64,000 bases of DNA from Sinorhizobium meliloti 4H41 (GTDB lineage: Bacteria > Pseudomonadota > Alphaproteobacteria > Rhizobiales > Rhizobiaceae), in NCBI RefSeq assembly GCF_000375585.1, contig NZ_AQWP01000001.1, positions 372,001 to 436,000 of the forward strand, given 5' to 3'. The position numbers were made by a program, and so were the translations under genes. The notes beneath the pieces are model-generated. The model had not been told where the DNA came from, did no database searches, and saw only the letters and a list, made by a program, of their open reading frames with translations. This document shows, in pieces, positions 5,424 to 46,542 of this stretch (position 1 is its first letter; each line of letters opens with the position of its first letter).

Positions 5424-5897
5424 TCACTGCAACCGGTCCACGGTTGCCTGCGCGAAGCGCCGGGCGGTCAGCAAATCGCCGGAGGACTTACCGGTCATGC
5501 CGCGCTCGGCGAGGAGATGGGCATAGCTTGCCATTGCCAGAACGTGGCCGTTCGCGGCGGCTTCGGCGAGAATTCGTGCCGACTGCAGCTTCTGTCCAGC
5601 CTTGTCGAGAACGCGTGCGAGCTGGAACTGCGTCCGGGCGCCGCCGTTCTGATTATAGGCCTCGCGGCAGGCGGAAAGCGCCACTCCGATGCGGATGTCC
5701 TGCGTCGCAACGGCCGGGAAAGCCCTGTTGCGTTCGAGATCGAATTCGCTGCCGGCCTCGCGGTCGCATTGCTCGGCGGCTGTGAGATCGCTTGCACGCG
5801 CCGCGGAAGGCATGATCGCGAAGAGGGGCAGGAGCACGGCCGCCGCAAGCAGATGATGCAGGCCGGTGCGAAGGCTCGATTCAACGTATTTCGTCAT
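5424..5897 (-). CDS. Small exported protein, SMc02178-like Clr target
   Basis: A 157-residue protein with an N-terminal signal peptide: a basic start, a hydrophobic stretch LLAAAVLLPLFAIM, and probable cleavage after ARA near residue 36. The mature part has a helical repeat region resembling Sel1/TPR motifs (QLARVLDKAGQ, LAMASYAHLLAERG). The start is the ATG at 5897, with GAGGGAG eight bases upstream; longer in-frame readings run through the promoter. By position it matches SMc02178, reported as the main infection-related reporter target of the Clr-cAMP cascade during Medicago symbiosis. The molecular function is unknown. The Clr-type palindrome at 5948-5963 lies about 58 bases upstream of the start codon, in a region shared with the divergent FecR gene. 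Confidence 0.82.
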   Translation of the reverse strand: MTKYVESSLRTGLHHLLAAAVLLPLFAIMPSAARASDLTAAEQCDREAGSEFDLERNRAFPAVATQDIRIGVALSACREAYNQNGGARTQFQLARVLDKAGQKLQSARILAEAAANGHVLAMASYAHLLAERGMTGKSSGDLLTARRFAQATVDRLQ

Positions 5898-5947
5898 GGT
5901 GCGCTCCCTCTTGCCCGCACATTCTAGGGTCGCTCCGGCCCGGTATC

Positions 5948-5963
5948 TGTTCCGCGGGAAACA
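5948..5963. promoter_or_regulatory. Clr (Crp-type) binding site in a divergent promoter
   Basis: TGTTCCGCGGGAAACA is almost perfectly symmetric and fits the S. meliloti Clr consensus as I recall it (HGTYHC-N4-GRWACA) at every position. It sits between the SMc02178-like gene (start 5897, minus) and the FecR gene (start 6095, plus). Its centre is about 58 bases from the first start codon, compatible with class I or II activation leftward. Clr itself is encoded at 8680-9384. Confidence 0.85.
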
Positions 5964-6094
5964 GCGGCGAAGGCGATGAAACGGTGAGTTCAGGCAGACC
6001 CCAAGATGCGCCTTGCATCGGGGACGCCTCGGTCTATCCTCGTGAGGAGCCGGAGGCCGAACAGGGAGCGCTGCGAAACCCAGCGGAGAAGCCG

Positions 6095-6709
6095 ATGCGG
6101 CAGTTCGAGGTGAGGAGACGGATCTTTCTTGGCGGGCTGTTGCTTGCCGCCGTATCGGGCGGCCGTTCGACGGCAGCAGCTCCGGTCGTGGGCAAGGCCG
6201 CAAAAATCCGCGGCAACGTCCGCCGTCGGCAGGGCGGGGACGAGGAACGGCTGGCGATCGGCGGCGCGGTTCTCGACAAGGATTATGTCCTGACGAGCAG
6301 CAACAGCTTCGCCGATCTCGCCCTCAGCGAAACGCGTATCCTGCTCGGTCCGCAAACGGAACTGCTGATCGACAGCTACATCGCCGGCCAGGGCGGAACC
6401 CTGGAGCTGGGACTGGGCCGGATGGTCTTCGACCGGCCCGAAGGCTTGCCCAAGACGGACGTCGCGGTGCGCACCGCCTTCGGCATGATCGGCGTTCGCG
6501 GAACGAAATTCTTCTGCGGCCCGAGCCGAGCGGCGTTCGCGGTCTTCGTTGAACATGGCGTGGTGTCCGTTCGGGGCGGCGGCGTTACACGGACAGTTGC
6601 GGCCGGCCAGGGCGTCGATATCAGCCGCCCGGGCGCCGCTCCCAGCGAACCGACGCGCTGGGGAGAGGTGCGGATTCGTCAGGCCTATGCGAGCGTCGGG
6701 TTGAGGTAG
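6095..6709 (+). CDS. FecR-domain protein with Tat-type signal peptide
   Basis: A 204-residue protein. From the ATG at 6095 (GGAG upstream) it starts MRQFEVRRRIFLGGLLLAA, a twin-arginine style signal (RRxFL followed by a hydrophobic core), so it is likely exported folded to the periplasm. The body is a FecR-type domain (KIRGNVRRR, then NSFADLALSETRILLGPQTEL, then AFGMIGVRGTKFF). FecR domains usually take part in signal transfer across the envelope; here no sigma factor is adjacent. The next gene encodes a CHASE2 adenylate cyclase on the opposite strand, ending 38 bases away. The shared Clr site upstream suggests cAMP control. I infer, without proof, that it may modulate the cyclase sensor. Confidence 0.8.
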   Translation: MRQFEVRRRIFLGGLLLAAVSGGRSTAAAPVVGKAAKIRGNVRRRQGGDEERLAIGGAVLDKDYVLTSSNSFADLALSETRILLGPQTELLIDSYIAGQGGTLELGLGRMVFDRPEGLPKTDVAVRTAFGMIGVRGTKFFCGPSRAAFAVFVEHGVVSVRGGGVTRTVAAGQGVDISRPGAAPSEPTRWGEVRIRQAYASVGLR

Positions 6710-25668: not shown

Positions 25669-26334
25669 ATGAGTGTCGCACCCGACGGCGAAGACGCAGA
25701 CAGGCCGGGCGTGGATCGTCGCCCCATCGCCGCGCGCGACAGCGGCTACGCGCGGCGCTTGACGGCGTTGCTTCTGAAGACGTCGGTCACGCCGAACCAG
25801 ATCTCGCTTGCAAGCGTCGTCTTTGCCGCGCTGGGGGCAGGGGCCCTCCTTTCCGCAGTCCGCTGGCCGTTCCTTTATCCCGTGGCGCTCGCCGCTATCC
25901 AGTTGCGCCTCCTGTGCAACCTTCTCGACGGCATGGTGGCGGTCGAGGGGGGGCGCGGTTCGCCGGTGGGAGCGCTCTACAACGAGTTTCCCGACCGGGT
26001 CGCCGATACCTTGCTCATCGTTGCACTCGGCTATGCCGCCGGCGCGGGATGGCTCGGCTGGGCGGGAGCGCTTGCGGCCGCCTTCACGGCCTATGTGCGC
26101 GTCTTCGGCGGGTCGCTCGGCCAGGCTCAGGACTTCCGCGGTCCCATGGCGAAACAGCACCGCATGGCGTTGATGAGTCTCGCCTGCGTGCTGGCATTCG
26201 GGGAAGCGTTTGTGATGACGGAGCGCCTCGTGCTTTACGCCACGGCTTGGATCATTCTTGCCGGCGCGCTCGTCACATGCGCGACCCGCACGAGGGCCAT
26301 CGTCGCGCGCATTCGGGAAGGCGCGAAGCCGTGA
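25669..26334 (+). CDS. CDP-alcohol phosphatidyltransferase-like protein with altered motif
   Basis: A 221-residue membrane protein, the first gene of a three-gene lipid cassette. The CDP-alcohol phosphatidyltransferase motif normally reads DGxxAR-x8-GxxxDxxxD. Here it is LLDGMVAVEGGRGSPVG followed by ALYNEFPDRVAD, so the Arg is Val and the third Asp is Asn, while another Asp follows four residues later. YnbA-like relatives appear, as I recall, to share the Asn-Glu variant. It may use an unusual acceptor or have changed activity. No clear ribosome-binding site precedes the ATG at 25669, and the start is uncertain. Its stop overlaps the next start (GTGA), so the genes are coupled. Confidence 0.8.
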   Translation: MSVAPDGEDADRPGVDRRPIAARDSGYARRLTALLLKTSVTPNQISLASVVFAALGAGALLSAVRWPFLYPVALAAIQLRLLCNLLDGMVAVEGGRGSPVGALYNEFPDRVADTLLIVALGYAAGAGWLGWAGALAAAFTAYVRVFGGSLGQAQDFRGPMAKQHRMALMSLACVLAFGEAFVMTERLVLYATAWIILAGALVTCATRTRAIVARIREGAKP

Positions 26335-26942
26335 TCGACCTGGCATTGATCGGCCTCACGCGGTTCATCGTCGGCGGGCAGGCGCACTGGATGGGCTCGC
26401 GGCCGGAAATGCGCCAGCGAATCTATTTCGCCAATCACGCGAGCCATCTCGACACGCTGCTGATCTGGTCGGCGCTGCCGCGTGCGTTGCGCGCATCGAC
26501 GCATCCGATCGCCGCGGCGGACTATTGGGGCAGGGGGGCCGTGAGGCGCCATATCGGGCTAAAGGTGTTGAACGGCGTGCTCGTCGAGCGCTCGACGCAG
26601 GGGCCGCCCGGAGCGGCTCTCGCACCCTTGCGCAACGTGCTCTGCGAGGGTGAGTCGCTCATCCTTTTCCCGGAGGGCACGCGCGGCAGCGAGCGGTTGC
26701 CGGGGCCGTTCAAGAGCGGGCTCTACTGGCTGTCTCAGGAATTTCCCGACGTGGAACTGATCCCGACCTATCTCGACAATCCCTCGCGCGCCTTTCCCAA
26801 GGGAACCTTTTTGCCCGTCCCCATCAGCTGCACGGTGCGTTTCGGACCGCCGGTCGCGCGCCACACCGGCGAAGAGAAGGAGGCTTTTCTGGAACGCGCC
26901 CGCGCAGCGGTCGCCGCACTTGCGCCGGAACCCATCGGATGA
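26331..26942 (+). CDS. PlsC-like 1-acylglycerol-3-phosphate acyltransferase
   Basis: A 203-residue acyltransferase. The HX4D catalytic motif is NHASHLDTLL (residues about 34-43) and the phosphate-binding motif is LFPEGTRGSE. The family moves an acyl chain from acyl-ACP or acyl-CoA to lysophosphatidic acid or related acceptors. The GTG start overlaps the stop of the preceding transferase gene by three bases, and the CdsA-like gene follows eight bases later. The protein is short for the family and has little extra N-terminal hydrophobic sequence. This is probably a second, specialised enzyme and not the housekeeping PlsC. Confidence 0.88.
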   Translation: MIDLALIGLTRFIVGGQAHWMGSRPEMRQRIYFANHASHLDTLLIWSALPRALRASTHPIAAADYWGRGAVRRHIGLKVLNGVLVERSTQGPPGAALAPLRNVLCEGESLILFPEGTRGSERLPGPFKSGLYWLSQEFPDVELIPTYLDNPSRAFPKGTFLPVPISCTVRFGPPVARHTGEEKEAFLERARAAVAALAPEPIG

Positions 26943-26949
26943 GGCTTCC

Positions 26950-27891
26950 ATGTCCTTGAACGACAAACTCTTTATCCTCTTTGCCGGCATAGGCGCTCTT
27001 CTCGGAGCGGCATCGCTGATCGGCTTCGTGCTGTCGCGCCGCGCGACGTCCGAAACGGGGCGGGCGACGATCGACAATCTCAATGCCCGTATCAGGGCAT
27101 GGTGGGTGATGATCGCCATATTCGCGGTGAGTTTCGCTCTCGGCCGCGGCGTCACGCTCGTGCTCTTTGCTCTCACCTCCTTCTACACGCTGCGCGAGTT
27201 CGTCTCGCTGACGCCGACGCGTGCCGCCGATCACCTGCCGCTCGTCGCTTCCTTTTACGTTCTGCTGCCGCTGCAATACTGGCTGATCTCGATCGACTGG
27301 TATGCGCTTTTCACCATTCTGATACCGGTCTACGGCTTCCTCCTCCTGCCGAGCCTTTCCGCGCTGAAGGGCGACACGGAGCAGTTCCTGCTGCGCGTCT
27401 CGCGCATCCAGTGGGGGCTGATGCTGACGGTCTATTGCATCAGCCACGCACCGGCCCTCCTGACGCTCGACATCCCCGGCCGGCCGGGCGAAGGCTTTCT
27501 GCTGCTCTTCTTCCTCATCACCATCGCGCAGTTCAGCGATGTCATGCAGTATGTCTTCGGCAAGCTTTTCGGCCGGACGAAGATCGCACCGGTCGTCAGC
27601 CCGTCGAAAACGGTCGAGGGACTTGCCGGAGGCGGGCTTTCGGCAGTGGCTGCCGGCGCGGCCTTGTGGTGGATAACGCCCTTCACGCCGCTACAGGCGG
27701 CCGCCATGGCCCTCGCCATCGTCGCCATGGGCTTTCTCGGCGGACTGGCGCTCTCGGCCGTGAAGCGCTCGATGGGCGTAAAGGACTGGGGCTCGATGAT
27801 CAGCGGCCATGGCGGCGTACTCGACCGAATGGATTCGCTGAGCTTCGCGGCACCGGTGTTCTTTCACCTGACGCGATATTTTTACACGTGA
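26950..27891 (+). CDS. CdsA-like phosphatidate cytidylyltransferase
   Basis: A 313-residue membrane protein with about eight helices. The CTP-transferase signature near the C-terminus is complete: SAVKRSMGVKDWGSMISGHG continuing into GVLDRMDS. It should make CDP-diacylglycerol from phosphatidic acid and CTP. Together with the acyltransferase and CDP-alcohol transferase just upstream it makes a compact set for producing and using CDP-diacylglycerol, as in the ynbA-ynbB region of enterics. I chose the ATG at 26950, with GAGG seven bases upstream, over an in-frame ATG at 26920 inside the upstream gene. The housekeeping cdsA should lie elsewhere. Confidence 0.9.
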   Translation: MSLNDKLFILFAGIGALLGAASLIGFVLSRRATSETGRATIDNLNARIRAWWVMIAIFAVSFALGRGVTLVLFALTSFYTLREFVSLTPTRAADHLPLVASFYVLLPLQYWLISIDWYALFTILIPVYGFLLLPSLSALKGDTEQFLLRVSRIQWGLMLTVYCISHAPALLTLDIPGRPGEGFLLLFFLITIAQFSDVMQYVFGKLFGRTKIAPVVSPSKTVEGLAGGGLSAVAAGAALWWITPFTPLQAAAMALAIVAMGFLGGLALSAVKRSMGVKDWGSMISGHGGVLDRMDSLSFAAPVFFHLTRYFYT

Positions 27892-45819: not shown

Positions 45820-45929
45820 GTGCAACACCCTGTTTCAAATCCGTACGCGTATTCTACAGCAATATGGTTTCGTCAAGAATAACGGCGAGATTGTGCGAGT
45901 GGTATCAAATTTCCCAGGAGGCAACGGCC

Positions 45930-46541
45930 ATGTTTGACGGCGCGCTTCGCAGGCGGCTCGATCCGATTCTGGACAGGTTCGGCGCCGCACTGGCCGGCCG
46001 CGGGGTCAGTGCCGATGCCGTCACGATCCTCGGCCTTTGCCTTGGCCTTGCGGCAGCCCTGCTCATCGGTCTCGGCGCTTATCTGCCCGCCGCCGCCCTG
46101 ATCCTTGTGAGCCGGCTCTGCGACGGCCTCGACGGAGCCGTCGCCCGCGCGAGCCGGAAAACGGATTTCGGCGGCTTTCTCGACATCGTTCTCGATTTCA
46201 CCTTTTACGGGGCCGTCCCACTCGGTTTCATCATCGCAGATCCGGCTGCAAACGGTCTCGCCGGCGGATTTCTGCTCTTCGCCTTCTATGTCAACGGCGC
46301 GAGCTTCCTCGCCTATGCCGTGATGGCCGAGAAGCGCGGCCTGACGACCGAGGTGCGTGGTGCGAAGTCGCTCTACTTCACGACGGGGCTCGCAGAGGCG
46401 ACGGAGACGATCGTCCTTTTTCTGCTGTCGTGCCTGTTGCCCGGGTGGTTCCCCTTGTTCGCAACCGTCTTCGCGCTCGTCTGCCTCTATACCGCGCTGT
46501 CGCGGATCGTTCTCGCAAGACTGACGTTTCGGCGAGACTGA
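45930..46541 (+). CDS. CDP-alcohol phosphatidyltransferase family protein
   Basis: A 203-residue membrane protein with about six helices. The family motif is complete: DGLDGAVARASRKTDFGGF followed by LDIVLD. It should join a CDP-linked alcohol or CDP-diacylglycerol to an acceptor in phospholipid synthesis; the acceptor is not clear, and it is not obviously PgsA or PssA. AGGAGG lies nine bases before the ATG at 45930. It is the second family member in this window; unlike the one at 25669 it has the canonical Arg and Asp residues. It is a single gene ending at a bidirectional terminator (46543-46570). Confidence 0.87.
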   Translation: MFDGALRRRLDPILDRFGAALAGRGVSADAVTILGLCLGLAAALLIGLGAYLPAAALILVSRLCDGLDGAVARASRKTDFGGFLDIVLDFTFYGAVPLGFIIADPAANGLAGGFLLFAFYVNGASFLAYAVMAEKRGLTTEVRGAKSLYFTTGLAEATETIVLFLLSCLLPGWFPLFATVFALVCLYTALSRIVLARLTFRRD

Positions 46542-46542
46542 C

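Follow-up and report, generated by a model that had tools for sequence, protein, structure and literature searches.

The closest described counterparts of the genes considered here are YnbA and YnbB of Escherichia coli. YnbB has been assigned in print to the synthesis of MPIase, as a backup (PMC6362211, PMC7018664). Its overproduction raised MPIase in E. coli (PMC6362211), knockout of ynbB is reported to cause no significant change in MPIase or growth (PMC6362211; reviews PMC7018664, PMC10881803), and YnbB did not take over the role of CdsA in bulk lipid synthesis of E. coli (PMC6362211, PMC7018664). YnbA was once listed by EcoCyc as a cholinephosphotransferase, an entry that was later removed (PMC3781023), and an insertion in ynbA (5622-6227 of locus L007 in the present data) is tabulated in a cyclic di-GMP biosensor screen (PMC13031359); literature searches on ynbA turned up no study of what the YnbA protein does. 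For the Mycobacterium tuberculosis phosphatidylinositol-phosphate (PIP) synthase PgsA1 (MtPgsA1), R155 and R195 are regarded as ligands of the acceptor phosphate, and exchange D93N is reported to leave activity nearly gone with substrate binding retained (PMC4634129). Here, a cassette of three lipid genes from Sinorhizobium meliloti 4H41 is compared with these systems. It lies at 25669 to 27891 of the stretch of DNA that was analysed (the window; 64,000 nucleotides, positions 372001-436000, within a genome of 6.79 Mb). The cassette represents a conserved, self-contained lipid module, which carries a fixed non-canonical active site and is related to the named proteins YnbA and YnbB.

Organization and conservation of the cassette

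Three forward-strand genes, read from the open reading frames (ORFs) of the window, fit into 2.2 kb. The first (25669..26334) encodes a CDP-alcohol phosphotransferase-fold protein of 221 residues (CPT). It is followed by a PlsC-type 1-acylglycerol-3-phosphate acyltransferase of 203 residues (ACT; 26331..26942), which starts with GTG in a 4-base overlap with the CPT stop, and by a CDP-diacylglycerol synthase of 313 residues related to E. coli YnbB (CDS; 26950..27891). The three ORFs agree with the initial annotation, which had described overlapping or closely spaced genes.

ACT scores 48.1 bits against PF01553 (cut-off 23) and contains HX4D and EGTR motifs, as expected for a PlsC-type acyltransferase; against TIGR00530 it reaches 40.1 bits, under the cut-off of 102.95. 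The HX4D motif of acyltransferases is catalytic, and its residues H36 and D41 (motif H36-D41, 26436..26453, forward strand) are each found in 76 of 77 alignment rows. CDS scores 212.7 bits against PF01148 (cut-off 24) and retains intact the C-terminal CDP-diacylglycerol synthase signature (S269-D295; 27754..27834, forward strand), whose residues are kept in 72-75 of 77 rows; S269, K272, R273, K278, D279, H287, G288, G289, D292, R293 and D295 are each kept in 74 or 75. The window sequence is counted twice in both 77-row alignments. CPT reaches only 14.2 bits against PF01066, under the cut-off of 22, and is not among the matches of a search of its own genome with this family; because of this score, its family assignment was taken from profile and fold comparison.

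A scan of genome contigs yielded at least 354 relatives, of which the best 80 loci were studied. All three genes are present in 74 of these 80 loci, and the order CPT-ACT-CDS predominates (69 loci, compared with three CPT-CDS-ACT, two ACT-CDS-CPT, one CPT-CDS, one CPT-ACT and four with CPT alone). Three of the six incomplete loci (L025, L052 and L080) run to a contig edge. Genes up- and downstream vary among the 80 loci; a larger operon was rejected on this ground, and the self-contained lipid cassette proposed initially is borne out. In five within-genus pairs, the ratio of nonsynonymous to synonymous substitution rates (dN/dS) is 0.12-0.20 for CPT, 0.03-0.19 for ACT and 0.06-0.11 for CDS. 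Conservation across the 80 relatives and the low dN/dS of CPT put both the motif and the unit of three genes far outside what chance would produce.

The altered transferase motif

The signature motif of CPT (25918..26007, forward strand) reads N84-x2-D87-G-x2-A-V92-E93...G101-x3-N105-x3-D109-R110-x2-D113. It departs from the canonical signature D1xxD2GxxAR...GxxxD3xxxD4 in that D1 and D3 are replaced by Asn (N84 and N105) and the motif Arg by V92. Val for Arg and Asn for Asp had been noted initially and both stand, the Asn exchange in fact being double; an Asp four residues further on, listed with them as an alteration, does not. Profile alignment places an equivalent of this residue, D113 (D4+4), in the solved structures of MtPgsA1, R. 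salmoninarum PIPS (RsPIPS) and AF2299. Since the D4+4 Asp is found in solved PIP synthases, D113 follows the usual pattern, and its interpretation as an 'extra', compensating ligand unique to the family was rejected.

Conservation of the motif was followed in an alignment of 112 rows holding 108 distinct transferases, 88 of cassette type and 20 of YnbA type (L100/L120, L104/L121, L105/L116 and L106/L126 repeat the same YnbA genes). N84, D87, N105, D109, D113, K162, R165 and R207 are identical in 108 of 108; these counts are not independent, as close relatives from Pseudomonas or Sinorhizobium account for many rows. L031 and L034 lie outside the alignment, and the usual motif is present in their ORFs. 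In a further alignment, A1, comprising 60 of the 81 sequences from the window and the 80 loci, N84, D87, G88, A91, E93, G101, N105, D109, R110 and D113 do not vary. A motif no longer conserved among relatives had been named initially as a sign of inactivity; no such loss is seen, and motif decay was rejected, the motif being unchanged in every aligned relative.

The suggestion that the changes might define a clade holds more widely than expected, as E. coli and rhizobial YnbA proteins likewise possess Asn at both D1 and D3. Judged by sequence, CPT belongs to a YnbA/cassette superfamily, defined here by Asn at D1 and D3 with D2, D4 and D4+4 kept. At position 92, each of the 88 cassette types has V, I, M or L and each YnbA type has R; R110 and R144 are present in every cassette type (88 of 88) and absent from every YnbA type. 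In these alignments the exchange of Arg for Val, Ile, Met or Leu sets off the cassette branch.

Predicted fold and putative acceptor site

The AlphaFold model of CPT, calculated from a 60-row alignment, displays six long helices (predicted local distance difference test, pLDDT, 91.7; predicted template modelling score, pTM, 0.86). Foldseek gave 18 matches at E up to 0.001, and each of them is AF2299, the A. fulgidus IPCT-DIPPS protein or a PIP synthase. Superposition with VIA-align gave Z-scores of 20.6 for AF2299 (root-mean-square deviation 2.0, 185 residues aligned), 20.4 for RsPIPS and 19.0 for MtPgsA1, and lower values for choline and choline/ethanolamine phosphotransferases (16.3-13.3), phosphatidylglycerol-phosphate synthase (12.8) and phosphatidylserine synthase (11.4). 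A profile search of solved structures also found AF2299 (E 6.4e-13) and MtPgsA1 (E 9.9e-12). By its predicted model, CPT adopts the class I CDP-alcohol phosphotransferase fold. The best NCBIfam models are archaetidylinositol-phosphate synthase (56.7 bits, cut-off 180) and PIP synthase NF045883 (29.9 bits, cut-off 170), both matched far under their cut-offs.

Alignment with MtPgsA1 pairs N84 with D68 (D1), D87 with D71 (D2), V92 with R76, E93 with E77, N105 with D89 (D3) and D109 with D93 (D4); further pairs are R110 with R94, D113 with D97, R144 with K135, K162 with R152, R165 with R155 and R207 with R195. MtPgsA1 numbering follows PMC6506517, PMC9385802 and PMC4634129, with R76, E77 and D97 counted off the alignment. 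All 88 cassette-type rows carry R165 and R207, the counterparts of the Arg pair assigned to the acceptor phosphate in PIP synthases.

Distribution and genomic surroundings

Judged by their record titles, hosts of the 80 loci are mostly alpha-, beta- and gammaproteobacteria; one metagenome-assembled record each is labelled Planctomycetota and Cyanobacteria. The nearest named relative by CPT is Ensifer sp. USDA 6670 (92%). In a sample of the genus, CPT is matched once in each of 32 out of 33 genomes, at 76-100% identity in 21 and at 47-50% in 11. A phylum-wide sample gave matches at E up to 1e-25 in 13 of 299 genomes. The two diverged cassette types never occur together in any of the 33 genus genomes, one of which (G024) has neither. 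Loci of the second type that were read (L078, L084, L094, L095, L096 and L109, with L094-L096 drawn from the 11 genomes with 47-50% identity) have the order ACT-CDS-CPT. About 400 bases separate synthase and transferase in L084 (Rhizobium mesoamericanum), with a similar gap in L094-L096. In L084, a small ORF of about 130 residues (5597-5989), whose internal ATG start was chosen by hand, overlaps both neighbours; it has no Pfam match.

Elsewhere in the S. meliloti genome there are one other PF01148 match, three other PF01553 matches and four other PF01066 matches. Housekeeping-type lipid enzymes exist outside the cassette, in line with the initial expectation. Of these four PF01066 matches, three bear canonical Asp motifs; the motif pattern missed the remaining one, L004. 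A second gene of the CDP-alcohol phosphotransferase family is located in the window itself (45880-46542, forward strand; PF01066 match 46011-46427), with canonical Asp residues and seven, not eight, residues from AR to the second Gly. In Brucella, pssA and other housekeeping-type genes are reported at separate loci, and the report does not concern a cassette (PMC9491525).

At least 45 ORF clusters occur among the loci. Judged from example members, the widespread non-cassette clusters among these 45 overlie the cassette genes out of frame or in antisense, and none of the clusters listed outside the cassette occurs in more than 14 of 80 loci. Such outside clusters, read from sequence with no family search, presumably include two-component proteins (a sensor kinase and a response regulator), an ABC-type ATPase and a LysR-like regulator. 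A scan for promoters and terminators gave nothing above shuffled sequences, and a repeat search gave short, weak matches only.

Co-occurrence of synthase and transferase

In a survey of 247 family genomes, transferases of at least 42% identity were counted as cassette type and matches with E below 1e-40 as YnbA type. A cassette transferase was found in 47 genomes, a YnbA type in 33, the synthase in 79 and YnbC in 25. The synthase is present in 47 of 47 genomes with a cassette transferase and in 32 of 33 with YnbA; conversely, 78 of the 79 synthase genomes have a transferase, and one (G061) has both types. The remaining synthase genome, G075, has neither; its assembly is 76% complete, and the match is partial. 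Fisher values calculated on this co-occurrence ignore relatedness.

Weaker CPT matches (29-37% identity) were read at 11 loci, all of which encode proteins 44-53% identical to E. coli YnbA. Within the fetched stretch, these rhizobial YnbA loci contain a YnbC relative in nine cases, YnbD in eight, a relative of ACT in 10 and the synthase in three, the stretch stopping inside the acyltransferase in seven of the 11. Beside the 80 cassettes, no match to YnbC or YnbD was found, except a weak YnbC match in L060. In the S. meliloti genome YnbC was not found by the search that matched 25 of the 247 family genomes, and YnbD was not found by a search run without a positive control. By these searches, the cassette lacks the YnbC and YnbD genes that mark a ynbABCD operon. 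In E. coli, YnbC has hydrolase and methyltransferase domains, and YnbD has a dual-specificity phosphatase domain and a weak PAP2 match.

Quick trees were calculated from 84 transferase, 70 acyltransferase and 76 synthase rows, with near-copies, short and very long rows excluded. In the transferase tree, a single branch (SH-aLRT 100) separates cassette (64 rows) from YnbA proteins (20 rows), which would place CPT outside the YnbA branch proper. In the synthase tree, the type has to change two to three times; the 14 rhizobial synthases linked to YnbA group there with second-type cassettes and a Mannheimia row (support 93, not starred). One genome, G224 (G224:C33, locus L117; G224:C81, locus L118), has ACT and CDS of a cassette clade, and the only transferase detected is of YnbA type and lies on another contig. 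This arrangement is a possible natural transferase swap. The distribution suggests that one ACT/CDS pair works with either transferase, and a shared or similar product is therefore favoured.

Proposed pathway and its alternatives

Enzymes of these families lead from lysophosphatidic acid via phosphatidic acid and CDP-diacylglycerol to a phosphatidyl-X lipid. In the cassette, ACT would convert lysophosphatidic acid to phosphatidic acid at the membrane, CDS, a CdsA/YnbB-type enzyme, would activate it to CDP-diacylglycerol, and CPT would move the phosphatidyl group onto a small phosphorylated alcohol with release of CMP. CPT may be regarded as a PIP-synthase-like enzyme with a rebuilt metal site, in which D2 and the presumed base D4 stay and D1 and D3 are Asn. 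We give about even chances to the view that the three genes constitute one co-inherited, dedicated pathway of this kind. It builds on gene order, the intact motifs of ACT and CDS, the predicted fold, the conservation of motif and acceptor site, purifying selection and the co-occurrence of synthase and transferase. CPT would be an active enzyme, its acceptor would carry a phosphate, and the product would be a specialised rather than a bulk lipid. As the counterparts of the acceptor-phosphate Arg residues and of D93 are unchanged, CPT most plausibly uses a phosphorylated acceptor and retains its base. Inositol phosphate synthesized de novo is an unlikely acceptor, because PF07994 (inositol-phosphate synthase) has no match in the S. 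meliloti genome; the same search matched five of 14 control genomes. An unusual lipid or head group, as proposed initially, is compatible with these data.

Several observations weigh against this pathway. In M. jannaschii phosphatidylserine synthase, exchange of any of the four Asp residues for Ser or Asn is reported to cut or abolish activity, and addition of Mg2+ to the D62N variant (D3 position) gave negligible or no recovery (PMC8633023); the natural double Asn at D1 and D3 could therefore be inactive. The anion site is described as a conserved feature of every earlier structure of a CDP-alcohol phosphotransferase (PMC6506517), so that its presence does not prove an acceptor phosphate. The YnbA types have neither R110 nor R144, and the two branches may therefore use different acceptors. 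Moreover, a YnbA genome, G131, has no synthase match, and L035, L037 and L039 (labelled as Aggregatibacter, Lampropedia and Neisseria wadsworthii) contain a transferase with no ACT or CDS within 6 kb.

The mutational data from this distant homologue (PMC8633023), together with the exchange of two of four metal-binding Asp residues for Asn in 108 of 108 distinct members, would also suit a catalytically dead CPT, kept as a CDP-diacylglycerol-binding scaffold or regulator of the ACT/CDS pair. Such a scaffold would not need the presumed base D4, D2 and the acceptor-site residues, which are the same in all 108, and the same catalytic set is kept in two diverged transferase branches; we regard a dead enzyme as quite improbable. 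Redundant synthesis of ordinary phospholipids, in which CPT uses glycerol-3-phosphate and provides extra phosphatidylglycerol-phosphate under some condition, is unlikely. Its acceptor, a phosphorylated alcohol, would suit the conserved anion site, and ACT and CDS are standard phospholipid enzymes with intact motifs; however, the CPT model reaches Z 18-21 with AF2299 and PIP synthases and 12.8 with the solved phosphatidylglycerol-phosphate synthase, and the reported failure of YnbB to substitute for CdsA in bulk lipids of E. coli (PMC6362211, PMC7018664) also speaks against it.

The module might, at very low probability, produce a diacylglycerol-pyrophosphate sugar, as proposed for YnbB in MPIase synthesis, with the phosphate of a sugar-1-phosphate attacking CDP-diacylglycerol. 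The acceptor-phosphate site retained in CPT would fit, as would two reported findings, the rise of MPIase upon YnbB overproduction and the dependence of compound I formation in membrane vesicles on N-acetylglucosamine-1-phosphate (PMC6362211). However, the same report assigns this step to CdsA/YnbB itself, and ynbA does not occur in it; the ynbB knockout left MPIase without significant change, and Tam41p in a cdsA deletion made MPIase depletion more complete instead of relieving it (PMC6362211). An attacking phosphate would have no need of D4 as a base, but all members keep D4.

Beyond the dedicated phosphatidyl-transfer pathway, a bolder and more tentative proposal, which we think somewhat less probable than its opposite, is that YnbA and cassette transferases form a distinct catalytic class, with D1 and D3 as Asn and one metal or a shifted metal site, that makes an undescribed phosphatidyl-(phospho)alcohol lipid. 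If so, two interchangeable transferase branches combined with one ACT/CDS pair would represent a specialised phospholipid pathway that is widespread in Proteobacteria and extends even to E. coli K-12. The fixed exchange of D1 and D3 for Asn provides a natural experiment on the extent to which the superfamily needs the two-metal mechanism.

Comparison with known systems

No published description of the cassette was found in a literature search mostly without subscription journals. Its initial ranking as a candidate undescribed system has to be narrowed, as YnbA and YnbB are already named E. coli genes of the same kind and YnbB has been studied (PMC6362211). With regard to the MPIase role assigned to YnbB, the near-complete co-occurrence of synthase and transferase in one bacterial family speaks for a phospholipid pathway of their own, instead of or besides that role.

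Cassette genes 2 and 3 share Pfam families and conserved motifs with the housekeeping enzymes CdsA and PlsC. ACT and CDS are, in contrast, separate paralogues of these, and the cassette synthase co-occurs with a transferase. CPT resembles the PIP synthases MtPgsA1, RsPIPS and MkPIPS as well as AF2299 in its predicted fold, the CDP-binding residues and the D4-R-x2-D arrangement, and shares the acceptor-phosphate Arg residues with the PIP synthases. It differs from PIP synthases and AF2299 in the replacement of D1, D3 and the motif Arg, and in scores far below the NCBIfam cut-offs. The likeness to E. coli YnbA and YnbB of the ynbABCD operon extends to gene arrangement, as in both cases the transferase adjoins a CdsA paralogue and combines Asn at D1 and D3 with Asp at D2, D4 and D4+4. 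Unlike YnbA, the cassette transferase carries Val, Ile, Met or Leu in place of the motif Arg and possesses R110 and R144.

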